DNA from: Limisphaerales bacterium
Lineage (GTDB): Bacteria; Verrucomicrobiota; Verrucomicrobiia; Limisphaerales; UBA11358
Length of the DNA: 50,212 nt
Assembly: GCA_003134375.1 (NCBI GenBank)
Contig: PLAY01000069.1
Span: 1 to 50,212, forward strand
Reading direction: 5' to 3'
The notes under the pieces were generated by a model. That model ran no database searches. It was not told the origin of the DNA and was given only the letters and a program-made list of their open reading frames with translations. Positions 2,324 to 41,187 of this stretch are shown here, in pieces. Within the stretch, counting starts at the first letter, position 1; each line of letters opens with the position of its first letter. Both the position numbers and the translations under genes were made by a program.

Positions 2324-5300
2324 TCATTTCCCCAGCAATCTCCACACGCGCAACGCCTCGGTCACGCCCCAAGCCTGTGCGTCGCAGCCGCGTTGGGTGT
2401 GCGGTGCGTCGCCATCCAGAATTTCCGGAACCTGGCCGAGACAGCCCGTGTTCATCAATTGTTCCATGCTGCCGAGATATGCCTTTGCCGCCGTCACCGC
2501 TTCCGGTGATCCCGCATCGCGGGACCACGCTCGCGCCAGCGCTTCGCAAAAAACCGGGAACGTCCACGTCCACGCCGTGCCGTTGTGATACGCGGGTTTG
2601 CGGCGCGCGTCCTCGTCCCCTTCGTAATGCGGCCAATAGGGCTCGACGGGGTTGTTGAGCAGTTGGCCATCGCGCCAGATCGGCAGCGGGACCGAAACCG
2701 GCAATGGCGCGAGCGATCGCAACGCGCCGGGCACCACCAGATATTTTTGCGCGGCCTCGACGCAGCGTTTGGCGCGTTCGCCGGACACCAGCCCAAGGCT
2801 CACGGCGAACAAACCGTTGCTGCGTAGCGCATCGTCGGGGGTGGCTTCGCGAGCGGCGACACCGGGTTTGGCCAGCAGCACGTCGGCCAGCCAGCCCTTG
2901 TCTTTGAGCCAGAAAAATTTTTCAAGCGAAGCGACAGCCCGTTCGGCCAGTCCGCCCCATTTTCCCCGGTCATCACCGCTGCTGATTTTTTCAAGCTGTT
3001 GCAGGAGGCGGATCCACAGAGCTTGAATTTCCACCGGATACCCTTCGCGCGGCGTGCCGGCGGGATGGTTCGTGTCCATCCACGTGAAATGACTCGGACT
3101 CCAAATCAGCGCCGAGTCCGCATCCATGCGGATGCCGTTCGGTGTGCTGCGAACGTAATTTTCTGCGATGCTGCAAAGCACATCACGAATGGTGCGCCCA
3201 GAATCGTCAACGGGCGTGGCATAGAGTGGGTCAGGCATCTTGCCTGACCGGGACAGGCTGGAAGCCGGTTCCACTTTTGCCAGTTCCTCGCACACTAGCG
3301 CAAACCACAACGGCGCGTCGGAGGAGTCCCGGTTGGAGGTGTTGTCGCCGTAAATGGCATTGGGCAACGTGCCGTCTTTTTCAAATTTTGCGAACGTGAG
3401 CAGAATTTGCCTCACTTCGTCAACCATGCCGGCGGCAAGCAAACCGCGTGCGGCAATAAAGGCATCGCGTCCCCAATCGAGAAACCACGGATAACCGGCA
3501 ATGACGGTCTTGCCCTCGCCGCGGCGGACGACAAATTGTTTCACAGCGTGTTGAAGTTGTTTTTCAAATGGAGCGCCAGGATCCGACTCGGTGTGTTGGA
3601 GTTCACGCTTCAGCGTGCTGTGGTCGCAAGCTAAAGCTTGAACTCCAACCGAAGGCTCGTCCATTTCCGCCGTCGTGACGAGCGTGATGCTTGCGCCTTT
3701 GGGCAGAGGCAATTCAAACCAGCCGGGGCTGTAGGCGTCGCCGCTGCCGGCCTGGCCGCGGCTTTGTTCGACCGGGTGGGGAATGTTTTCGCACCACTCC
3801 GGCTGCGGATGGTACTCGCCAGCATCCGCAAACACGCGCAACTGGCGATCCGGTGCGGGCGTGAAGGCGAAGCCAATTCGGGCCTGGATTTTCGGGTCTT
3901 GGGTCTGGAGTTTGTGTGTGTTTGAAGAAAAATGATAATCCGCGCCGCCGTTGTGTCTGGTTTCCTGATGGAAATTACGATCTTCAATGTCGAACCTCAC
4001 AGTCAGGCGCACGTCGGCTTCGACGGACAACTGTTTGCCGCACGCGCGTGCGGCCGTCGGTCGGGCAAAATGAAACATCGTTGTATTTTTCCCATCGAGC
4101 ATTTCGGCGCGCAACTCGATTTCGACCGTCCGCCCGTCGCCGGCATGGGCGACAAACTGCCAGACGGCTGGCGGACCGGCGGCAAACGACGCGAGATTTT
4201 TCGCATTGAGCGGTGAAAGGAAGCCATTGGCATTGACCCAGGCCCGGAGGCGTTTGACAAAGATATGACGGTCCACCGGGACGCCGGGGTTCAGGTTTGC
4301 GCCGAGCACGCAGTCATATTTGGAATTCACGCGGCCCAAATCCACGCACATTCGCGCCATGCCGCCGATGCCGTTGGTCAATAGGACGAGATCTGAGGGC
4401 GAGAACGAGGGCGAGAACGACGGAGCGGGCGACAGGAAACGAATTGCAGCGGTAATGTGCTGTGATGCGACGGCATAACGTTCCAAAATCAATTCAGCGG
4501 CTGTCGCAGTTTCGCGCGGCTGAAAACAGGCGATCTGTCCGTCGCCAACGGCAATGGATTGGGCATGAACCGCACACCCGTTTTCATTCTGCATTTGCAG
4601 TGTGGCCCGGAAGGGGGCGCTGTCCTGGATGAGCAGCCAATGGCCGGGCGGGACCGGCGTCACGCGGCGGCGGTCGAGCAAGGTCCAGATGATGACGCGC
4701 GGGAAAACTTTCTGTTGTTCCGCGTCACGTAACAGTTCGACTAGGGAAGATTTTAAGCCACGCGCGGCAAATTCACTGGCGGCGGCAAGAAAATTGGCCG
4801 GCGAACGCCCGACTTGCTCCGCGAGCCAGTGCCAGTCAAGACCGTCTATCGTTTCGACCGGCACGATTTTACCCAGTGTTTCGAGCGCCCAGGCGGCTTG
4901 CGCGCGGGCGCGACGGTAAGCGTCGCCGCTTAAACCTTGCGGCTCTGCCGTGGGTGCGAGGCAATGGCACGCGCCGGGTGCGAGCTTGAAAACGATTTTG
5001 TCCTTCTCGATGGAAAATTTCGGAAACGGCTGGCCCAGCAGTTCAAATTTGAAATTTGAGATTTGAAATTTCAAATCGGAAGGCGCCAGGGTCAGCGAAT
5101 TCGCCTTTTCAACATCGGGATTGACCAGAACCAGCACGGAATCTTTTCCTTCCGCGGATTCGCGAAGCAGCGCATAAACCGGCGAGTCGGGCGTGCTGAG
5201 TCGCGTGAGTTTTGCGCCGTCGAAAAAGCACGGGTGGCCGGCGAGCAGGCGGTTAAGTTGCGCGAGTTCGGAAACGATGTTGTCAGGGTTGTCCCACGCG

Positions 5301-6700
5301 AGGCCGGCACAGCCGTGGACTTTGATTTTTTCGGTGGCGAGCCATTCGACACCCCCGGTGAAACCAAAACCGCCGCTCGCACTGGTCAGCGCGCAAAGAC
5401 GGTTGCGCAACAGCGACCACACGCGCCCGCGGGCGGCAAGGCGGTCGTTGTCGTGGGTTTCGCTGTAATGAACGTAGGTGCCAACGCGCGAACTCTGGCG
5501 ATTGGTGTAGTCGAGGTAATCGGCGATCTGGCGACCGGAGTAATTTTGGAAAAGTTCGGAGTAAGCCCATTGCATTCCGCCGTCGGTGAGCAAATTTTCG
5601 GTGGCTTCCCACGAGCCGCCGAGGCCTTCGAGCAGGAAGATGGTTTCGGGAAATTCGTCCTGCACCCGGGCGATGATGTATTGCCAGGCGGGCACGGGAA
5701 TTTTGTAGCCGGCGTCACAACGAAAACCATCCACGCCGCGCCGGCACCAGATTAAAAGCGCGCCGGCGATTTTGTCCCACAGCGCGACATCATCCTGTTT
5801 CAGTTCGACGAGGTCTTCCCAGGTTGTCCCCCACGCGCCGGGGCTGGCGAATGTGCCGTCGGGGTTTCGCAGAAAAAATTCGGGATGATTTTCCTGCAAG
5901 GTCGCGCTCCAGCCGGTGTGGTTGATGACGATGTCAAGGAACACCCGTGCGCCGAGCAAATGCGCGGCATGGGTGAATTCGCAAAATTGATCCACCCCGG
6001 TCGTGCGTTTGTCGAATTCGATGAGTGCCGGATCAATCGCGGTCACGTCCAGTGCGGCGTACGGGCTGCCAAAACGCCCAAAGCGAGCGTAAGTTGTGGG
6101 CGTGGGATGAACCGGCAGCAAATGAATGATACGGCAACCAAGCGTTTGGACGATGTGCGGCAACTGGCGGGCCAGATCGCGGAACTTGCCGGAGGGTGGA
6201 ATGACGGTGAAATTTTTTCCATCGAGCTGTTGGAGTTGAACTTCGAGTTTTTTGTCGCGCGGGGATGACGAATTTTTCGTCGCCCCAAAAAGCCGGGTGA
6301 AGGCGCAATAAATGGTATTGGCGGTGCGGGCAAAATTGGGATGAACACTGATGCCGACATCCGGGCCATCGGGCCAATGCTGCCAGCCTTTCGGGTCGAG
6401 CAGATACGCCTTGGCTTTGAAGAAGCCGGCTTCAACGAGCGGCAATTCAATTTGCCAGGCATCGCCGTTTTGTTGCATCGGCACGTCGCGCCAGGATTCG
6501 CCGGCGAGAACCGGGTTGCCGGCGTGCGCGGCGATGATTTCGCGCCGGAGCGCTGCGGCGCGGCCGAGATTGGTGCGGAGCAAGGCGCGCCAGCCGTTGC
6601 GCCCGCTGCCGTCGTGGAGCGTGAAACGGATGCGGTCGCCGACGAAACGCACGAGGCGTTCGCCGGTCGCGGGTTCCATGATGGGAACGGGTTGCGGCAT
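2324..6700 (-). CDS. Two-domain glycogen debranching enzyme (GH13 plus amylo-1,6-glucosidase)
   Basis: At 1458 residues this resembles the layout of eukaryotic debranching enzyme: an N-terminal alpha-amylase-type (GH13) domain and a C-terminal glycogen debranching (GDE_C, GH133-like) domain on one chain. GH13 conserved regions are visible: DIVINHTG near residue 255, GVDGFRCDAGYKIP (nucleophile Asp) near 325, IFLLEGLGG (acid/base Glu) near 357 and HYSETHDNDR near 415. The C-terminal domain begins around 1040, with GYPWFLDWGRDAF near 1070 and PAYHNGTAWTWTF near 1400. Expected role: transfer of maltosyl or maltotriosyl stubs and hydrolysis of alpha-1,6 branch glucose in cytosolic glycogen breakdown. 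Three segments (residues about 541-553, 1017-1035 and 1142-1158) are translated dispersed repeats and fall outside the recognised motifs. It stands alone, divergent from the pilus-type genes at 6869. Which activity each domain has is inference. Confidence 0.88.
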   Translation of the reverse strand: MPQPVPIMEPATGERLVRFVGDRIRFTLHDGSGRNGWRALLRTNLGRAAALRREIIAAHAGNPVLAGESWRDVPMQQNGDAWQIELPLVEAGFFKAKAYLLDPKGWQHWPDGPDVGISVHPNFARTANTIYCAFTRLFGATKNSSSPRDKKLEVQLQQLDGKNFTVIPPSGKFRDLARQLPHIVQTLGCRIIHLLPVHPTPTTYARFGRFGSPYAALDVTAIDPALIEFDKRTTGVDQFCEFTHAAHLLGARVFLDIVINHTGWSATLQENHPEFFLRNPDGTFASPGAWGTTWEDLVELKQDDVALWDKIAGALLIWCRRGVDGFRCDAGYKIPVPAWQYIIARVQDEFPETIFLLEGLGGSWEATENLLTDGGMQWAYSELFQNYSGRQIADYLDYTNRQSSRVGTYVHYSETHDNDRLAARGRVWSLLRNRLCALTSASGGFGFTGGVEWLATEKIKVHGCAGLAWDNPDNIVSELAQLNRLLAGHPCFFDGAKLTRLSTPDSPVYALLRESAEGKDSVLVLVNPDVEKANSLTLAPSDLKFQISNFKFELLGQPFPKFSIEKDKIVFKLAPGACHCLAPTAEPQGLSGDAYRRARAQAAWALETLGKIVPVETIDGLDWHWLAEQVGRSPANFLAAASEFAARGLKSSLVELLRDAEQQKVFPRVIIWTLLDRRRVTPVPPGHWLLIQDSAPFRATLQMQNENGCAVHAQSIAVGDGQIACFQPRETATAAELILERYAVASQHITAAIRFLSPAPSFSPSFSPSDLVLLTNGIGGMARMCVDLGRVNSKYDCVLGANLNPGVPVDRHIFVKRLRAWVNANGFLSPLNAKNLASFAAGPPAVWQFVAHAGDGRTVEIELRAEMLDGKNTTMFHFARPTAARACGKQLSVEADVRLTVRFDIEDRNFHQETRHNGGADYHFSSNTHKLQTQDPKIQARIGFAFTPAPDRQLRVFADAGEYHPQPEWCENIPHPVEQSRGQAGSGDAYSPGWFELPLPKGASITLVTTAEMDEPSVGVQALACDHSTLKRELQHTESDPGAPFEKQLQHAVKQFVVRRGEGKTVIAGYPWFLDWGRDAFIAARGLLAAGMVDEVRQILLTFAKFEKDGTLPNAIYGDNTSNRDSSDAPLWFALVCEELAKVEPASSLSRSGKMPDPLYATPVDDSGRTIRDVLCSIAENYVRSTPNGIRMDADSALIWSPSHFTWMDTNHPAGTPREGYPVEIQALWIRLLQQLEKISSGDDRGKWGGLAERAVASLEKFFWLKDKGWLADVLLAKPGVAAREATPDDALRSNGLFAVSLGLVSGERAKRCVEAAQKYLVVPGALRSLAPLPVSVPLPIWRDGQLLNNPVEPYWPHYEGDEDARRKPAYHNGTAWTWTFPVFCEALARAWSRDAGSPEAVTAAKAYLGSMEQLMNTGCLGQVPEILDGDAPHTQRGCDAQAWGVTEALRVWRLLGK
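3226..3274. repeat. In-frame repeat in debranching enzyme (GACAGGCTGGAAGCC core)
   Basis: A palindrome TCAGGCATCTTGCCTGA is followed by GGGACAGGCTGGAAGCCGG and TTCCAC. The second part matches the end of the repeat inside trpE (GACAGGCTGGAAGCCTG then TTCCACC). It is read in frame as KVEPASSLSRSGKMPDPL between normal GDE_C sequence. Confidence 0.65.
3596..3648. repeat. In-frame palindromic repeat in debranching enzyme (GGAGTTC..GAACTCC)
   Basis: Outer arms TTGGAGTTC and GAACTCCAA are perfect inverted repeats. Inside lie two nested palindromes, CACGCTTCAGCGTG and CAAGCTAAAGCTTG. It is translated as part of VGVQALACDHSTLKRELQ, just before the GDE_C domain. The outer arms are of the GGAGTTC/GAACTCC class also seen within glyS and the DUF2851 gene. 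Confidence 0.6.
5041..5077. repeat. In-frame simple repeat (AAATTTGAGATTTGAAATTT)
   Basis: A/T-only run of alternating AAATTTGA and GATTTGAAATT units in an otherwise G+C-rich gene, translated as SDLKFQISNFKFELL in the linker after the GH13 domain. It is nearly self-complementary. It resembles a dispersed simple repeat that has been captured in frame. Confidence 0.5.
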
Positions 6701-7724: not shown

Positions 7725-9464
7725 ATGGCCAAAGTCAAATCATTCGGAGAACGCATCGCCGACGCACTCGTCGAGGACGGCTTGTTGTCGGCGGGGCAGA
7801 TCACGGAACTGCTGGAACAGCAAAAAAAGGAGGGGGCGCGCCTCATCAAACTCATTGTTGACAAATCCTATGTCAGCGAGCAGGACCTGGCTGTTTCCAT
7901 GGGGCGCGTGCTGAACGTACCGCCCATCAATCTCGCGCGGGTAAGTATTCCGCCGGAAGTCGTCGAATTGCTGCCGCGCGACACGGCGCACAATTACAAG
8001 ATTGTTCCCGTTTCACGTTTGGAAAACAGGCTGTTCATCGCGATGGCCGACCCGCTGAACGTCCTGGCAATTGACGACGTCAAGCGCATCACCAGACTCG
8101 AAATATCTCCGCTCATCGCGTCTGAAAAAGCCATCATTGACAAGTTAAATGCCTTCGATGCCGCCAAGGGCGGTTCGATGGAAGATATCATTCAGGATGC
8201 TAAAAAGCAGGATGAAGCCGACGCGGAAGCCAATTCCATCGAAGCGGTAAAGGAAGGGATAGAAGAGGTCAACCTTGACCAGCTCGCCTCTTCCAGCGGA
8301 GAAGCGCCGGTAATCAAACTTGCCAATCTCATCATTGTTCAGGCCATCAAGGACCGCGCCAGCGATATTCACCTGGAGCCTTTTGAAAAAAACATGCGAC
8401 TGCGTTACCGGGTGGACGGCGTGCTCATGGACGCAACCCCGCCGCCCAAGCAAATGCAACTGGCGCTGACCTCGCGCTTCAAAATCATGAGCAGCCTGGA
8501 CATTGCCGAACGCCGCCTGCCGCAGGACGGTCGCATGCGCGTGCGCGTGAGCGGCAAGGACTATGACCTGCGCGTGTCCGTAATGCCAACCGTTCACGGC
8601 GAAAAAATCGTGCTGCGCGTCCTCGATAAATCGAACCTCACCGCCAGCATTGACAAGCTCGGTTTGGATCCCGACACCTTCAAACAAGTCAAGGCTGCCA
8701 TTGACGCGCCACACGGATTGATTCTCGTCACCGGCCCGACGGGTTCGGGCAAAACCACGACCCTTTACTCGGCGCTCAACGAGTTGAACAGTCCCATTTA
8801 CAACATCGTCACCGTCGAAGACCCGGTGGAATTTCAGGTTCCGGGCATCAACCAGGTGCCGACCAAAAAGGAAATCGGCCTCACTTTTGCCAACGCCCTG
8901 CGTTCCATTCTGCGCCAGGACCCGGACATCATCATGATCGGTGAAATTCGCGACACCGAGACCGCCGAAATCGCCATCGAAGCCGCGCTCACCGGACACC
9001 AGGTCTTGAGCACGATGCACTGCAACGACGCGCCCGGCGCCATCGCGCGACTCGATGACATGGGCATTGCGCCGTTTTTGATTTCCTCGTCCGTCATTCT
9101 TTCCTGCGCGCAACGCCTCATGCGCCGCACTTGTTCGCATTGCCGCGAGCCGGTGACTTATCCGCCCAAAATGTTTGAAGACCTCGGTATTGACCCCGCC
9201 ATTTTCAGCGGGGTGCAACTTTACCGCGGTCGTGGCTGTGACCGTTGCAAAAATTCCGGTTACGCCGGCCGCATGGCCATCATTGAAGCCATGACCATCA
9301 CCGACCAAATCCGCAAACTCATCATTGCCCGCGCCAACACGCGCGAGCTGGGCAAGGTGGCCATCAGCCAGGGAATGCGCACGCTCCGCATGGTCGGACT
9401 CGACCGCGCGCGCGAGGGCATCTCGACGTTGGAACAAGTGCTCCTGATCACCTCGGCGCATTGA
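7725..9464 (+). CDS. PilB/GspE-family secretion or pilus-assembly ATPase
   Basis: Full-length 579-aa hexameric ATPase of the type II secretion/type IV pilus family. Visible parts: MshEN-like N-domain at about 1-150 (ALVEDGLLSAGQI, FIAMADPLNVLAID), N2 domain, Walker A GPTGSGKTTT near 337, Asp box VTVEDPVEFQ, Walker B PDIIMIGEIRD, His box LSTMHCNDAPGA, and a tetra-cysteine zinc site (CSHC and CDRC). It drives polymerisation of pilins or pseudopilins from the cytosolic face of the inner membrane. It starts four bases after the TPR/MshEN gene and forms an operon with it. No PilC/GspF, PilT or prepilin peptidase is adjacent. A second paralogue lies at 19955. Confidence 0.9.
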   Translation: MAKVKSFGERIADALVEDGLLSAGQITELLEQQKKEGARLIKLIVDKSYVSEQDLAVSMGRVLNVPPINLARVSIPPEVVELLPRDTAHNYKIVPVSRLENRLFIAMADPLNVLAIDDVKRITRLEISPLIASEKAIIDKLNAFDAAKGGSMEDIIQDAKKQDEADAEANSIEAVKEGIEEVNLDQLASSSGEAPVIKLANLIIVQAIKDRASDIHLEPFEKNMRLRYRVDGVLMDATPPPKQMQLALTSRFKIMSSLDIAERRLPQDGRMRVRVSGKDYDLRVSVMPTVHGEKIVLRVLDKSNLTASIDKLGLDPDTFKQVKAAIDAPHGLILVTGPTGSGKTTTLYSALNELNSPIYNIVTVEDPVEFQVPGINQVPTKKEIGLTFANALRSILRQDPDIIMIGEIRDTETAEIAIEAALTGHQVLSTMHCNDAPGAIARLDDMGIAPFLISSSVILSCAQRLMRRTCSHCREPVTYPPKMFEDLGIDPAIFSGVQLYRGRGCDRCKNSGYAGRMAIIEAMTITDQIRKLIIARANTRELGKVAISQGMRTLRMVGLDRAREGISTLEQVLLITSAH

Positions 9465-14405: not shown

Positions 14406-16064
14406 TCAATGCGCAAATCCTTCCGCCATCGCGATGGCCTTGCGCATGGCCATGGATTTGTTGACGGTTTCCTGAAATTCGCCTTCGGGCGTCGAATCGT
14501 TGACCCAGCCGCCGCCAGCTTGCACGTAGGCCTTTCCATTCTTTAGCAAAGCCGTGCGCAGGGTGATGCACGTGTCCAAATTTCCATTGAAGGAAAAATA
14601 GCCGACGCAACCCGCATACGGGCCGCGCGCGGCCTGTTCCAGCTCGGAAATAATCTGCATCGCGCGGATTTTCGGCGCGCCGCTGACCGTGCCCGCCGGA
14701 AACGTCGCGCGCATCAAATCGTAAAGCGTCTTGTCGGCGGAAAGTTTGCCTTCAACCTGTGTCACGATGTGCATGACGTGGCTGTAACGCTCGATGATCA
14801 TCAGGTCCTTCACCTGCACGCTGCCGAAATCGCACACGCGCCCGATGTCGTTGCGCGCCAGGTCCACGAGCATCACGTGCTCGGCGCGTTCCTTCGGGTC
14901 GGCCAGCAATTCTTTTTCGAGCGCGGCGTCTTCCTCCGGTGTTTTGCCGCGCCGCCGGGTGCCGGCGATGGGGCGGATTTCCACCCGGCTGTCCTCGCAG
15001 CGCACATGAATTTCCGGTGAAGCGCCCACGAGCGAAAAACCGTCCAATTCCAGCAAAAACATGTAGGGCGACGGATTTACCGAGCGCACGGCGCGATAAA
15101 CATCAATCGGCGACGCCTTCACCGGCGCGGAAAACCGTTGTGAACCGACGACCTGGATGATGTCGCCCGCCGTGATGTATTCCTTGGCCTTGAGCACGTT
15201 CGCAAAAAACTTTTCCTTTCCGATATTAGACTCAAACGGAACCGGCGGCACTTCGCCCGGCAGGCTGACCGGGTGATGTTCGCTCGGCTGTTCGAGCAAT
15301 GAAACCAGCCGCTCAATTTCGCCGACGGCATCTTCGTAAACCTCGGCCGGACCCGCCGCGCCATCGAGAAAGGCGTTGACCAGAACGGTGATGGTCTGCG
15401 CCACCCGGTCAAAAATCAGCAGTTGGTCGGCGATGAGGAAAACCAGGGTGGGCGTTTGCAATTCGTCCTTGGGCGGGCGCGGCACGACCGGTTCAACGTC
15501 GTGAATAAATTCGTAGCCGATGAAACCTATCGCGCCGCCGGTGAAACGCGGCAGGCCCGGCAGCAAGACCGCGCGATATTTTTTCATCACGCGCTCGACG
15601 ACTTCGAGGCCATCGCGCACTGTGTCATTGGGGTGGAACCGGCGTCCCGCCTGTCCAAATTCGGCGTCCCGCCGAATTTCGTCGGGTGAGTTAGACTGCT
15701 GTTTAACGGACAATTGTGGAGCGGTTGTTCGTCCGCCGCCGGTTTCGGGCGCGACGCCCGAAACGACAGGCTGGAAGCCTGTTCCACCAATCAAAAAGGT
15801 CTCAATGACCCTGCCATTCTCGACGACTTCGACGCGGGTTCCGGTTTGCTTGATGACTGCGCGCGGATTGCAACCAACGAACGAGTAGCGACCGAGATGC
15901 TCGCCGCCTTCGACCGATTCGAACAAAAACGATTCGCCCTGTCCGCGGATTTTTCGGTAGGCCGAAAGCGGTGTTTCAATGTCGGCCAGCAGGCGGCGCG
16001 TGATGGGAATCACGTTGCCCTGCGCGGCGAGCTTCAAGAATTCATCCAGTGTCGGTGAGTGCAT
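14406..16064 (-). CDS. trpE: Anthranilate synthase component I
   Basis: The chorismate-binding catalytic domain is complete: [46 protein letters not shown], and [15 protein letters not shown] near residue 457. The N-terminal domain has the usual P-L-S-A-Y feedback region near residue 33. It converts chorismate plus glutamine-derived ammonia to anthranilate, the first step of tryptophan synthesis; the glutaminase TrpG is not in this window. At 552 residues it is longer than most TrpE proteins because residues about 93-144 are a translated palindromic repeat (positions 15631-15788) placed in the variable linker between the two domains. It begins 3 bases after the membrane-protein gene that follows hisI. 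Confidence 0.93.
15631..15788. repeat. 158-bp palindromic repeat inserted in frame in trpE
   Basis: The outer arms GGGTGGAACCGGCGTCCCGC and GACAGGCTGGAAGCC..TTCCACC are imperfect inverted repeats. Inside are smaller palindromes: AAATTCGGCGTCCCGCCGAA, and GGTTTCGGGCGCGACGCCCG followed by AAAC. The whole element is open in the trpE frame and is read as about 52 extra residues ([26 protein letters not shown]). Its right end matches the repeat at 3226-3274. Confidence 0.75.
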
Positions 16065-19954: not shown

Positions 19955-21706
19955 ATGGGTTTTAGCCCGGTAAAAAATCTGGTGGCATCGGTCGCCGACG
20001 CGACGCCCGTCCAATTTGACGACTGGCGCAAGGCGTGGCGTGCCGCCGCGAACAACGGCTCGGCGGAGCCGCTGCTTGGGTTCATCGCCCGCGAGCGCGG
20101 CCTGGCGGAGGACGCTTTTCTCCAAAAGCTGGCGCAAACGCTCGGCTGGGCATTTTTGGATTTGCCCAAGCACACCACTCCGCCGGAGGCGCGGAACAAA
20201 ATTTCCACGAAAATCGCATTTCAGTATTCCGTGCTGCCCACGGACGTGAAAGACGGCACGCTCCAGGTTGTTGTCAGCGATCCGTTCGATGCCGCGATGA
20301 TGAATGCCGTGCGGTTCGACGCGCGGATGCCGGTGCAGTTCGCGCTCGCGCCGAAGGCTGAAATCGAAAAGGCACTGAAGAAATATTACGGCGTCGGCGC
20401 CGAAACGCTTGATGAAATGGGCGATGACGAGCCGATGGAGCTGGAAATCGCCAACGACAAGGAAATTACCGAGGACGATCAGGAGGCCAGTGTCATCAAA
20501 TTCGTCAACCAGGTCATCTGGGAGGCGTTCAAAGACCGCGCGACAGACATTCACTTTGAACCGGCGGAGGACGAACTGCGCATTCGCTACCGCATTGACG
20601 GCATTTTGCATCAGACGCCGATGCCGCCGCAGTTGAAACGCTATCAGGCCGCGCTCATTTCGCGCATCAAGGTGATGAGCGGCATGAACATTTCCGAAAA
20701 ACGCCTGCCGCAGGACGGCCGCATCAACGTCCGCATCAAGGGCGAGGAGATTGACATCCGCGTTTCGACGGTGCCGACGGTTTACGGCGAAAGCGTTTCC
20801 CTGCGTTTGCTGACGCGCGGGAAAATATTCCTGAGTCTCGACAAACTGGGTTTCGCGCCGAACGACGAGGCAATGATCCGCGAAATCATCGTCAAACCGC
20901 ACGGCATTTTTCTCGTCACCGGCCCGACCGGTTCGGGCAAGTCCACGTCGCTCTACGCTTTTCTCAGCACGATCAATTCCGTGCATAAACGCATCATCAC
21001 GATTGAGGAGCCGGTCGAATACGAACTCAAAGGCATCAACCAAATCGCCGTGCGCCCTGAAATTGGCCTGACGTTTGCGATGGGTTTGCGCCACATTTTG
21101 CGCCAGGACCCGAACGTCATTATGGTCGGCGAAATCCGTGACCTGGAAACCGCCGAGATCGCCATTCGCGCGTCGCTGACCGGCCACCTGGTTTTCAGCA
21201 CGCTGCACACGAACGACGCGCCGAGCGCGTTCACGCGGTTGATTGACATGGGCATTGAGCCGTTTCTCGTGGCGTCGTCGGTCGAGGCCGTCATGGCGCA
21301 GCGCCTCGTCCGCACGATTTGTCCGCATTGCAAAACCGAGCAAAAGGTCGAGCCCGATTACCTTCGGCGCATCGGTTTTCCGGAGGAGGAAATTGGAACG
21401 GCCAGGTTCTGGCACGGCGTCGGTTGCGAAGAGTGCCGGCAATTTGGCTATCAAGGACGCAAAGGCATTTACGAGCTGCTCATTGTCAACGAGGCCATGC
21501 GTCCGCTGCTTTTGAGCCGCGCACCCGCCTCGACCATTGCGACGAAGGCCATAGAACAGGGGATGCGCACATTGCGCACCGACGGCTGGACCAAGGTCAG
21601 AAACGGCGAGACGACCATCGAGGAAGTTTTGCGCGTCACCCAAATCGAGGAGCACATGGACACGCTCGGCGGCGACACCAAAACCGAAATGCAGGTCAAA
21701 GAATGA
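19955..21706 (+). CDS. gspE: Type II secretion-like ATPase GspE
   Basis: 583-aa paralogue of the ATPase at 7725. An MshEN-like N-terminal domain at about 1-150 (DLPKHTTPPEARNKIS, LQVVVSDPFDAAMM) is followed by the motor: Walker A GPTGSGKSTS near 323, Asp box ITIEEPVEYEL, Walker B PNVIMVGEIRD, His box FSTLHTNDAPSAF and a zinc site (ICPHCK and GCEECRQFG). AAGGAAACAC precedes the ATG. It leads a four-gene plus-strand operon with gspL-, gspM- and gspD-like genes, which supports a secretion or pilus role rather than retraction. It powers pseudopilus assembly at the inner membrane. Confidence 0.92.
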   Translation: MGFSPVKNLVASVADATPVQFDDWRKAWRAAANNGSAEPLLGFIARERGLAEDAFLQKLAQTLGWAFLDLPKHTTPPEARNKISTKIAFQYSVLPTDVKDGTLQVVVSDPFDAAMMNAVRFDARMPVQFALAPKAEIEKALKKYYGVGAETLDEMGDDEPMELEIANDKEITEDDQEASVIKFVNQVIWEAFKDRATDIHFEPAEDELRIRYRIDGILHQTPMPPQLKRYQAALISRIKVMSGMNISEKRLPQDGRINVRIKGEEIDIRVSTVPTVYGESVSLRLLTRGKIFLSLDKLGFAPNDEAMIREIIVKPHGIFLVTGPTGSGKSTSLYAFLSTINSVHKRIITIEEPVEYELKGINQIAVRPEIGLTFAMGLRHILRQDPNVIMVGEIRDLETAEIAIRASLTGHLVFSTLHTNDAPSAFTRLIDMGIEPFLVASSVEAVMAQRLVRTICPHCKTEQKVEPDYLRRIGFPEEEIGTARFWHGVGCEECRQFGYQGRKGIYELLIVNEAMRPLLLSRAPASTIATKAIEQGMRTLRTDGWTKVRNGETTIEEVLRVTQIEEHMDTLGGDTKTEMQVKE

Positions 21707-36838: not shown

Positions 36839-38098
36839 TCAAAAATCAGGGCCTGATTTGACGGCTTTAAGCACGGTTTCGTAAATTCGCTTTAACGGTA
36901 TCTTTGCCCGTACCGCCAGTTTTTTGCAGGATTCAAACTCCGGCGCGGCCTGGACCACCTTTCCGTTGAGCCGTCCGATTTTAAGGGTGACCTCCCCAAA
37001 CGGCGTTTTGATTTTGGTGAATTCGCGCCGCAATTTGCGCCGTTCCGCCAGCGTCCGCCGCACGCCAAACGCACTCGTCTCGCGCAAAATCATTTCGCTG
37101 AATTTGTCCGCGTCGGTTTCGGCGCACAGAACCGTGAGTAACACGCCGGGCCGGTTTTTCTTCATCTGAATCGGCGTGTGAAAAACATCCAGCGCCCCCG
37201 CTGCCAGCACGGCTTCGACGAAATACCCGAGAATTTCCCCGCTCACGTCGTCCAGATTCGTTTCGAGCACAACAATACGATCCGTTTCCCAATCCAAGGC
37301 GGTTGAGGGTTGAGGGTTGAGGGTTGAGGGTTTGCCGAGCACGGCACGCAACACATTTGGTCGCGTTTGGTTGTCGCGCGTGCCGAGTCCGAAACCGATT
37401 TTTTCCGCGACCAGACTTTGCATCGGTCCAAAATTTTCGACGAACTCCGCCAGCAGGGCAGCGCCGGTGGGCGTGACCAATTCGTGCGGTTCGTCGCATT
37501 GCGTCATACCGATGCCGCGGACACCGAGAATCGCCAGCGTCGCCGGAGCGGGAACAGGAAAGCGTCCGTGCGCGCAATCCACCCAGCCGGTGCCTTCCAC
37601 GACCGGCGCGGCCAGCACGCGTGGTTTGCCGAGCAGTTCGAGCGCAATGCACGCGCCCACGATGTCCACGATGGAATCCACCGCGCCGACCTCGTGGAAA
37701 TGAACTTTCCCCGGCGGCAGGCCGTGGATTTTGCCCTCGGCCTCCGCGATGCGCTGAAACACGGCGACGGATTTTTTCTTCACCCACGCCGACAATTTGC
37801 TGCGCCCGATGAGTTTTTTGATTTCCGCAAACGTCCGGTTCCCGTCGTGATGATGGTGGGCGTGGTGCGTGAAACGTGAAACGTGATGGTGGGCGTGGGC
37901 GTCGGCCAGATGGACGTCAAACTTCACGCCGGCGATGCCGGATTTTTGCTGGCGCGCGACGTGAAGATGATAGCCGCCAAGTTTCAACTTCTTCAACTCT
38001 CGTTCCAGTTTGCGGTCATCCGTACCGAGGTCAATCAGTGCGCCGATGAACATGTCGCCGCTGATGCCGCTGAAAATGTCGAGGTAAAGCGTTTTCAT
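36839..38098 (-). CDS. larC: Nickel-pincer cofactor biosynthesis protein LarC
   Basis: 419 aa, single uninterrupted frame (the Lactobacillus gene needs a programmed frameshift). The N-terminal domain [20 protein letters not shown] and [17 protein letters not shown], and the C-terminal [15 protein letters not shown] and [13 protein letters not shown], are diagnostic of the DUF111/LarC family. A His-rich block at about residues 70-85 (HAHHHH and neighbours) fits nickel handling. LarC is a CTP-dependent enzyme that inserts Ni into the pincer cofactor. Residues about 256-266 (STLNPQPST) are a translated GGGTTGA repeat. It overlaps larB by four bases (ATGA); larA and larE are not in the window. 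Confidence 0.93.
37301..37331. repeat. In-frame GGGTTGA tandem repeat in larC
   Basis: Four head-to-tail copies of a GGGTTGA heptamer, in frame with larC (minus strand TCAACCC). The same unit borders the glyS repeat (40381-40402) and occurs between the exported-protein and FmdB genes near 10627-10640. Confidence 0.65.
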
Positions 38099-39505: not shown

Positions 39506-41187
39506 CAGCGGACTTTCGGTAACAACCAATTTAACAATTCACCGATGGCAATGCGCTCCTGCCGGCCATCGTCCCGAAAACGCACCGTCACCGTGTCCTT
39601 CAACTCCGGCTTTTCACCGAGCGTGTCGAAATCAATCGTCACGCAGAACGGCGTGCCGGCCTCGTCCTGGCGCGCGTAACGGCGGCCAATCGAACCCGCG
39701 TCGTCGTAAAATACATTCATCCACGGACGCAGCCGATCGCGGACTTCCATCGCCTTCTTCACCAACTCCGGCTTGTTCTTGAGCAGCGGCATCACGCCGG
39801 CCTTGACCGGCGCCACGCGCGGATGAAATTTCAAAATCACGCGCGTATCGGTTTTCCCTTTGTTGTCGGTCTCGGCGACTTCGCTGTAGGCGTTCGTGAT
39901 CAGCGCAAGGATTAGACGATCCACCCCCGCGGACGGTTCAATCACGTGCGGGATGTATTGGCCTTTCGCGAGGCCGTTCGCGTCTTCGGCGGCGTCCCTG
40001 GCAGCCGCTTCTTCCGCCACGCCCATTTTGAAGAGATATTTTTTCCGGTTCTCGTAATAGCGCCGCCAGAGGTCGTCCGATTTTTCCTTCGGCAACTTCG
40101 CCCATGCCGTGCGCAGTTCCTCGTCGAAAACGCCCATCGGCTTGCCGGAGAAACGCTCGTGCTGGCTCAAATCAAAATCGCTGCGCGCGGCGATGCCTTC
40201 GAGTTCCTGCGTGCCGAACGGGAACTTGAACAGAATGTCCACACAGGCGCGGGCGTAATGCGCGAGTTCCTCCGGCTTCTGCCAGTATTCTTCGAGCGTT
40301 GTGCGCGGCAGTCCGATGCCTTCGTAAAACTTGATCCGTTCCTCGACCCAGTATTTGTGCCACGCTTCCCAGCCCCAATTGGGTTGAGGGTTGAGGGTTG
40401 AGCCGTCTCCGCTCCGCTTCGCCGAGCCAAGGGGTTGAGAGTTTGGAGTTCCGGCTTTAGCCGGTTCGGGGCTGCCTGAAGGCGGAACTCCGAACGCTTC
40501 CGCCGCCGTTGCCACGCGACCACAGATTGCCTCCACCACTTCGTCCGGCTTGATGAAAAATTCCAGTTCCATCTGCTCGAACTCGCGCGAACGGAAGGTG
40601 AAATTGCGCGGCGTGACTTCGTTGCGAAAGGCCTTGCCCACCTGTGCAATGCCGAATGGGACGCGCTGCCGTGAGGTTTCGAGCACGTTCTTGAACTGCG
40701 CGAAGATGGCCTGCGCGGTTTCGGGGCGGAGGTAGGCAATTGCCGATTCATCCCGCACCGGGCCAACGTAGGTTTGGAACATCAGGTTGAATGCCCGCGG
40801 CGCGGTCTTCTCGCCGTGGCATTCAGAAACCATCTTGCTGGGCTTTTGTGGACAGGGGATTTCATTGGTCTGATCGGCGCGGAAACGGCCCTTGCACGTC
40901 TTGCAATCAACCATCGGGTCGCTGAACGTGTCCACATGGCCGCTGGCCTTCCAGATTTGCGGGTGCATGATGATGGTGGCTTCGAGGCCGGCGACATCGT
41001 CGCGCTGGCGGGTCATGGTGTTCCACCAGAGTTCCTTGACGTTGCGCTTGAGTTCCGCGCCGAGCGGGCCGTAGTCCCAAAATCCATTGATGCCGCCGTA
41101 AATTTCGGAGGATTGAAAAATGAAGCCGCGCCGCTTGCACAGCGACACGATTTTTTCCATCAGAACATTTTCTTTCGGCTCAGCCAT
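39505..41187 (-). CDS. glyS: Glycyl-tRNA synthetase (dimeric, class II)
   Basis: Start ATG 41187 (MAEPKENVLMEKIVSLC); an upstream extension through the pseudopilin shadow region is not protein-like. Class II core: GGINGFWDYGPLGAELKRNV, motif 2 LRPETAQAIFAQFKN with GIAQVGKAFRNEVTPRNF, REFEQMELEFF, motif 3 VIEPSAGVDRLILAL and the C-terminal anticodon-binding domain KAGVMPLLKNKPELVKKAM. It charges tRNA-Gly. Of the 560 residues, about 231-269 (VPPSGSPEPAKAG.., PLGSAKRSGDGSTL) are translated repeats between the conserved RV.TAAEAF and WEAWHKYWVEERI segments. Whether this loop affects activity is unknown. Confidence 0.95.
   Translation of the reverse strand: MAEPKENVLMEKIVSLCKRRGFIFQSSEIYGGINGFWDYGPLGAELKRNVKELWWNTMTRQRDDVAGLEATIIMHPQIWKASGHVDTFSDPMVDCKTCKGRFRADQTNEIPCPQKPSKMVSECHGEKTAPRAFNLMFQTYVGPVRDESAIAYLRPETAQAIFAQFKNVLETSRQRVPFGIAQVGKAFRNEVTPRNFTFRSREFEQMELEFFIKPDEVVEAICGRVATAAEAFGVPPSGSPEPAKAGTPNSQPLGSAKRSGDGSTLNPQPNWGWEAWHKYWVEERIKFYEGIGLPRTTLEEYWQKPEELAHYARACVDILFKFPFGTQELEGIAARSDFDLSQHERFSGKPMGVFDEELRTAWAKLPKEKSDDLWRRYYENRKKYLFKMGVAEEAAARDAAEDANGLAKGQYIPHVIEPSAGVDRLILALITNAYSEVAETDNKGKTDTRVILKFHPRVAPVKAGVMPLLKNKPELVKKAMEVRDRLRPWMNVFYDDAGSIGRRYARQDEAGTPFCVTIDFDTLGEKPELKDTVTVRFRDDGRQERIAIGELLNWLLPKVR
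40381..40495. repeat. Composite 115-bp repeat inserted in frame in glyS
   Basis: Left part: GGGTTGA tandem copies, then GAGCCGTCTCCGC..CGCTTCGCCGAGCCAAG. Right part: GGAGTTCCGGCTTTAGCCGG..GCCTGAAGGCGGAACTCCGA, a GGAGTTC-type palindrome. The left core matches the Nudix-gene repeat (42880-42920) with four differences in about 31 bases, and the right part matches the DUF2851 repeat (34154-34218). The block is open in the glyS frame. Confidence 0.75.

Follow-up and report, generated by a model that had tools for sequence, protein, structure and literature searches.

How does a palindromic repeat come to lie within the gene for anthranilate synthase component I without closing its reading frame, and what kind of element is able to do so? 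This question is raised by a stretch of 50,212 nucleotides from a Limisphaerales bacterium (contig PLAY01000069.1; the whole stretch is referred to as the window), for which the original prediction, made from the sequence alone, had proposed a 158-bp palindromic repeat inserted in frame in trpE. The block is present at 15631-15788 as described, and it falls within the match to PF04715, the TrpE N-terminal family. The trpE frame is open throughout, and only its extent requires correction, from about 52 codons (residues 93-144) to 53 codons at approximately residues 94-146. The inverted ends and internal hairpins are also real: the DNA of 15621-15800 has a folding energy of -50 kcal/mol, whereas its shuffles average -31.1 (z = -5.9), and none of 200 shuffles folds as well. 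Among known RNA elements, no Rfam match was obtained in the window. Read in the direction of trpE, the element consists of a GGTGG tag, the hairpins H1 and H2, a core, the hairpins H3 and H4, and the inverted tag:

14406-16064, minus strand: trpE host gene (anthranilate synthase component I, 552 aa including the insert); ORF with chorismate-binding and TrpE N-terminal family matches
15631-15788, minus strand (canonical orientation): 158-bp element read with trpE, best read as REP-dimer/MITE-like; 24 full-length places, absence in compared relatives, structure
15784-15788, minus strand: GGTGG tag (GTRG type) at the left end, in inverted orientation to the right end
15766-15782, minus strand: hairpin H1, 7-bp stem, TCN loop; alignment and pair counts
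15742-15764, minus strand: hairpin H2, 10-bp stem; alignment and pair counts
15680-15741, minus strand: core of some 62 bp, with little variation in length and low sequence conservation
15657-15679, minus strand: hairpin H3, inverted counterpart of H2; alignment and pair counts
15638-15654, minus strand: hairpin H4, inverted counterpart of H1, imperfect in the trpE copy; alignment and pair counts
3226-3274, minus strand: short relative with two hairpins, read in frame within a glycogen-debranching-like gene (2324-6700, minus strand)

The original prediction regarded the block as a mobile or proliferating element that enters coding DNA without destroying the product, and tied this reading to two questions: whether the genome holds further copies, and whether related TrpE proteins lack the segment. 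In the own genome, a 4.16-Mb draft of 201 contigs and 92.8% completeness, a search with the trpE block sequence gave at least 64 matches at E<=1 and a covariance model at least 87 rows at E<=0.1; both counts are lower bounds, because only 40 of 122 and 150 of 2949 candidates, respectively, were scored, and many of the covariance-model places are listed once per strand, since the element comes close to being its own complement. With the same model, at least 24 places of 154-161 bp and more than 100 bits represent full-length copies, with more short or weaker ones besides. Genome-wide, the element is multi-copy and occurs both inside and outside genes. In an alignment of 17 copies, 98.6% of the paired cells are standard pairs and 45 cells are changed on both sides; none of 500 shuffles reaches either value, and sliding the partners reduces pairing to 33-42%. 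The four hairpins are kept by compensatory changes. At E<=0.001, the covariance model finds matches in 42 of 59 genomes, including the own one.

The left end reads GTRG in all 24 full-length copies and the right end in 22 of them, with one GGAG and one lost end. Like GTAG-type REPs, the element has hairpins with an unpaired GTAG-like tag, including tag variants of the kind given in the excerpted text of PMC3733652. As in a REPIN or REP dimer, two inverted REPs surround a spacer in many copies, although each half here contains two hairpins. With its GTRG tags, a pair of hairpins at each end and a core that varies, the trpE block fits a REP dimer (REPIN/MITE-like) best. The end that the block was said to have in common with 3226-3274 is confirmed with 96% identity over 23 nt, with the correction that 3226-3274 is a two-hairpin short form and not a full copy.

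The segment is absent in the relatives compared. When TrpE was used as query against 39 relatives, 28 gave an N-terminal piece reaching query positions 93-116 and a C-terminal piece starting at 139-149, in a list of matches that also contains paralogues and partial contigs. For 29 relatives the loci were fetched, one (L073) was dropped because it lacked the motif match, and the segment is missing from all 28 other TrpE ORFs aligned. Since the element is multi-copy and the compared relatives lack the segment, the interpretation as a mobile element that enters coding DNA without destroying the product is supported. The uvrA gene and the U32-family gene, which also carry the element in the own genome, likewise have variable linkers without the trpE-type element in the compared relatives. 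Around these linkers, the relatives are too divergent for a comparison of target-site duplications. The AlphaFold model of TrpE is poor (mean pLDDT 55.7; insert 95-145 below 50) and carries no weight in the argument.

Several relatives carry other short inserts in the same TrpE loop, with the repeat PLTPSLSPSDGER or a similar one in L054, L058 and L060, and one relative's uvrA (L286) has a different insert at the uvrA element site. A peptide of the type LTPxLSPSDGER or LTPALSP...GGEGRGEG is encoded in the TrpE linkers of L054, L058 and L060 and in the UvrA linker of L286; we take this repeat type to be palindromic. The TrpE and UvrA linkers seem to collect unrelated palindromes. Within the window, an intergenic inverted repeat at 2146-2311 (36-nt arms, 75% complementary, 94 nt apart) perhaps belongs to this second family. 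Two further repeats were observed in the window: direct repeats at 8463-9095 and 20651-21283 (12188 bp apart, 73-82% alike), which lie in long ORFs and, judged from a GPTGSGK-like motif, probably represent two paralogous ATPase genes, and a short repeat with GGGTTGA units at 37294-37321 and 40375-40402.

Five of the 24 full-length copies in the own genome are located inside genes, namely in trpE, uvrA, a U32 peptidase/TrhP-like gene, in which both sides of the copy align to relatives, and twice in priA. Three more full-length copies only abut gene homology and were not counted as intragenic: C50:7246 follows NuoM homology at the end of its frame, and C19:6413 and C3:6011 precede NifS-like and PanC homology, respectively. 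Also not counted were C8 and C142, whose spanning frames have no family match. The five intragenic copies have a common orientation and a common frame, GGTG...PVVSGV.PET..., which is only suggestive because just four genes are involved and 13 of the 24 full-length copies keep this frame open. Shorter forms are found in frame in alaS, valS, thiC (twice) and mutS (L314, L318, L320, L321); a single frame for all intragenic copies was rejected, because those in alaS, thiC and mutS are read in different ones, so that the common frame is limited to the five full-length copies. An apparent second insert in the own alaS, GQASRLSQTSEKNSGEKDGDRRDACPT, lies near the other hot site of that gene.

In priA of the own genome, the two element copies flank the gene for a RAYT (REP-associated tyrosine transposase), and copy, RAYT and copy form one open frame with PriA of 1051 aa. 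The RAYT has no stops and intact catalytic residues, and both the PriA and the REP_Tyr_transpos profiles match the composite. PF01797 gives 23.6 bits (cut-off 23); NF047646 gives 75.4 bits for the protein (cut-off 80) and 80 bits in the genome search, a cut-off exceeded by six of nine relatives' RAYTs, while five other composites score 66-76.5. The two copies share 91.7% identity with each other and 79-81% with the trpE copy, and a RAYT flanked by the same REPs corresponds to a REPtron. With whole PriA as query, the own genome and three relatives (G000, G050, G040, G022) each gave one PriA place, and the composite priA is the only one found in the own genome. Between two PriA anchors, 20 of 30 priA loci of the genus were readable: 15 have 20-58 residues at this position, four a type-1 RAYT and one (G018) a RAYT of another type. 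This RAYT of G018 (L267; recognised by family matches, its type by eye) has its own repeated flanks and occupies the linker that holds type-1 RAYTs elsewhere.

The AlphaFold model of the PriA-RAYT composite is weak (mean pLDDT 56.5), with ten-residue means of 60-93, mostly at least 78, over residues 281-420, and values below 50 in the element-encoded stretches 213-279 and 425-479. The RAYT thus ranks among the best-predicted parts of the model, the pattern to be expected of a domain held by two flexible tethers. Alignment to Klebsiella PriA (4nl4) stops at residue 228 and restarts at 234. A Foldseek search with the whole model returned PriA and other helicases or ATPases, and no RAYT, among the best 50 of 1544 matches, and in a sequence search the RAYT reached E. 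coli TnpAREP (4er8) at no better than E = 0.7.

RAYTs in host frames are not restricted to this genome. A search of 49 genomes from the genus gave 18 matches to the priA-RAYT, 15 of which lie in frames of at least 698 aa, with PriA, AlaS, ThrS, ClpB and DnaE as hosts; for the latter four, family scans of representatives confirmed a RAYT between host parts. In 196 genomes of the order, all 33 listed matches with E < 1e-40 lie in frames of 555-1540 aa, and 28 of the 74 weaker matches listed lie in frames of more than 500 aa. A scan with host names, in which 80 of 182 confirmed loci were kept and hosts were named from family scans of representatives together with BLAST or clustering, assigned 72 RAYT loci to frames of host genes and left eight stand-alone. 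This proportion describes the clade of the priA-RAYT and not RAYTs in general, because the sample was drawn with in-frame RAYTs as query; with a general RAYT profile as control, 11 of the 150 matches listed from 145 genomes of the phylum lie in frames of more than 600 aa, own priA included. The hosts of the 72 loci are RecG (38), AlaS (16), MetH (5), PriA (4), a DUF1156 protein (3) and ValS (2), as well as ThrS, an HscA/DnaK-like protein, an XTP pyrophosphatase and a DNA methylase (one each), with some assignments one-sided due to contig ends or missing family matches (for instance L149, L154, L173, L179, L219 and L225). Weak PriA labels of three loci (L192, L197, L208) were replaced by RecG after clustering.

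Host copy number was checked for AlaS and PriA. Of 21 genomes with an AlaS-embedded RAYT, 20 have a single place for the catalytic part of AlaS, including G144, a one-contig genome, and G087, whose two matches represent one place; G195 gave none. In G026, the N-terminal part of AlaS lies in a separate frame of 398 aa and not in that of the RAYT (L231), possibly due to a frame break or an assembly error. An in-frame ATG within 40 codons upstream is present in 19 of 94 in-frame RAYTs, two of them with a Shine-Dalgarno-like site, but this test for an own start does not discriminate, because stand-alone RAYTs behave similarly (1/8). All of 106 type-1 domains, 98 of which lie in host frames, retain HUH, and 104 retain the Tyr, counted after exact duplicates and short partial cores had been dropped. 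Type-2 RAYTs were observed in frame in ClpB and DnaE (L141, L143, L144, L254). The DUF1156 hosts (L179, L183, L185), among them the Desulfoferrobacter suflitae record, are not housekeeping proteins, and that of L183 matches an anti-phage-associated family.

The ends of these units connect them to the trpE element. The clearest units consist of GGGGAGC or GTAGC, two hairpins, the RAYT, and then the same parts inverted, and the trpE element has this arrangement of ends without the RAYT. Terminal inverted repeats in common with an autonomous element, as in a MITE, are clear in some units and not in all. Flank repeats exceeding the 99th percentile of a control made up of 175 mismatched pairs were found for 51 of 94 in-frame RAYTs of both types (direct 14, inverted 42) and were absent in 43; among 15 stand-alone RAYTs, two had direct and four inverted repeats above this threshold.

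In our view, the trpE block is quite probably a non-autonomous short form of a RAYT transposon that is maintained within host proteins as translated segments. Its halves would correspond to the left end (tag and two hairpins) and the right end (inverted hairpins and tag) of full units, in which the RAYT gene would sit between those ends. As ends and RAYT are open in one frame, a unit or short form that lands in phase in a length-variable linker would be translated with the host protein, in which the ends would presumably form flexible linkers and the RAYT a domain of its own. As a putative HUH/Tyr single-strand nuclease, the RAYT would cut and move the tagged hairpin ends; that it also moves the short form is suggested by the common ends and by the work on E. 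coli TnpAREP, as presented in the excerpted text of PMC8266576. An indispensable single-copy host gene may moreover shield the RAYT frame, because any stop or frameshift arising within the RAYT would disrupt the host gene as well. Several observations count against this explanation: the composite priA of the own genome is arranged as copy, RAYT and copy and not as a simple unit, 43 in-frame RAYTs have no flank repeats above the threshold, the AlaS N-terminal part of G026 and the shorter elements in alaS, thiC and mutS depart from the expected frame, no recent jump was seen, and at one metH site host homology extends up to about 10 residues from the RAYT.

Alternatively, the RAYT could have been domesticated as a useful, fixed enzyme domain that is inherited vertically, with the palindromes as relics. 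Strong purifying selection agrees with this possibility: the median dN/dS is 0.07 and the maximum 0.28 for the 142 of 373 pairs at >=70% identity that have a finite dS, the others being saturated and the pairs non-independent. Domestication would also fit the single site mapped for RecG-RAYTs, the main alaS sites, which are common to several genera, and the DNA-handling function of several hosts (PriA, RecG, DnaE). In 22 hand-picked pairs with the same host, RAYT and host divergence roughly agree in 18, as vertical inheritance predicts, but they disagree in four (PriA L130/L131 and L128/L130, MetH L157/L170, DUF1156 L183/L185); in L128/L130 the RAYTs are 70% and the hosts 90% identical, in L183/L185 77% and 36%. 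A recent jump was not seen among the compared pairs, in which synonymous sites are mostly saturated. Against domestication, hosts are unrelated (AlaS, ThrS, ValS, MetH, chaperones, DUF1156 proteins), RAYT presence within the genus is patchy (14 of 49 genomes, own included), and AlaS and MetH have two insertion sites each. Host switching is also evident from a tree of 118 RAYT domains, built by a quick method and with many open forks, in which the labels for 12 hosts and the stand-alone state switch 24 times, compared with a minimum of 12 and a shuffle mean of 66.8. The starred branches alone force at least two changes for RecG, three for AlaS, two for ThrS, two for MetH and four for stand-alone RAYTs, which can be gains or losses. 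Taken together, we consider domestication unlikely.

It is even less probable, to the point of being very doubtful, that the insert is removed by protein splicing or as an RNA intron, which would leave the host proteins normal. Such removal would suit single-copy, indispensable hosts, and the choice of conserved genes resembles that of inteins, but Pfam scans of 15 composite ORFs revealed no intein or Hint family, and Rfam scans of 12 composite loci at gathering thresholds revealed no intron family, only a tRNA and a 6S RNA. Without a Hint or splicing domain and a catalytic intron RNA in these scans, inteins and group I/II introns (IStron-like) were rejected. The inserts are moreover located in variable linkers where checked, and an open frame, which an RNA intron would not require, is present in all 33 close matches. 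Artefacts of assembly, or frames that are open by chance in G+C-rich palindromes, are scarcely credible even though most sources are metagenome assemblies, because the same arrangement occurs in dozens of genomes, including the one-contig G144, and in two records not titled as MAG (L154, Ereboglobus sp. PH5-10; L185, Desulfoferrobacter suflitae), and because RAYTs of the phylum sample are rarely in long frames.

Beyond the reading of the trpE block as a short form of a RAYT transposon, we lean, with little more than even confidence, towards a transposon class that lives as translated domains. Its RAYTs, lacking an own stop, would be expressed only within indispensable host proteins (AlaS, ThrS, PriA, RecG, MetH and others) and would move between such genes in frame, with ends selected as harmless linkers and short forms such as the trpE element spreading likewise, as a counterpart of inteins that does without splicing. 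A single RAYT clade, which retains its catalytic residues, appears to have entered unrelated genes repeatedly and in almost all cases in frame, and RAYT mobility thereby becomes testable. That the host's own essential gene keeps a selfish gene open is suggested by these data and would be an unusual form of self-protection. Such insertions may explain many odd inserts in proteins of Verrucomicrobiota. Neither the element class (REP dimer plus RAYT, GTAG/GTGG tags) nor the in-frame RAYTs in housekeeping genes was visible to the original prediction.

Several known systems resemble parts of this arrangement. Inteins are selfish domains that reside in frame in conserved single-copy genes; different from these, the RAYT inserts showed no splicing domain in the scans and lie in variable linkers. 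Enterobacterial RU elements, which reportedly carry ORFs intragenically (PMC2759123), are similar by description as small mobile repeats in coding DNA, and no link to RAYTs was seen for them. We know of no transposase for the Rickettsia RPE, to which the element had been likened, rightly as an analogy. The likeness to RPE is one of description, and it concerns in-frame palindromes in many unrelated proteins (excerpted text of PMC3733652). TIRYTs or TIRtrons also have a RAYT between inverted, partly self-complementary ends, and are not described as in-frame parts of other genes in the excerpted text of PMC3733652.

The same excerpt (Di Nocera 2013, PMC3733652) describes GTAG-tagged REP dimers, some of them intragenic, including those of Opitutus terrae. 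The likeness extends to tagged hairpins, dimers and sites in genes such as uvrA and those of tRNA synthetases, and the GTGG tag variant also occurs in O. terrae GTAG-20; the elements here differ by two hairpins per end, a length of about 157 bp and the link to RAYT units in frame in genes. The trpE element itself is a further in-frame REP dimer of this known type. In the open-access PMC literature, no description was found of RAYTs or in-frame transposases inside essential genes, and as far as literature searches go, the in-frame nesting of RAYTs within single-copy housekeeping genes is new. In the excerpted text of PMC6006769, RAYT genes are without evidence of mobility, and overlong members were discarded as fusions or annotation errors. 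RAYTs are presented as domesticated, single-copy and vertically inherited transposases that do not copy themselves in the excerpt of PMC8049555. With the REPIN/RAYT system, as outlined in the excerpts of PMC8049555 and PMC8266576, the elements share an inverted REP pair with a variable spacer, an HUH/Tyr RAYT and a GTAG-type tag; whereas the RAYTs of that system are single-copy, vertically inherited and not self-copying, those described here appear to switch host genes and sit inside them.
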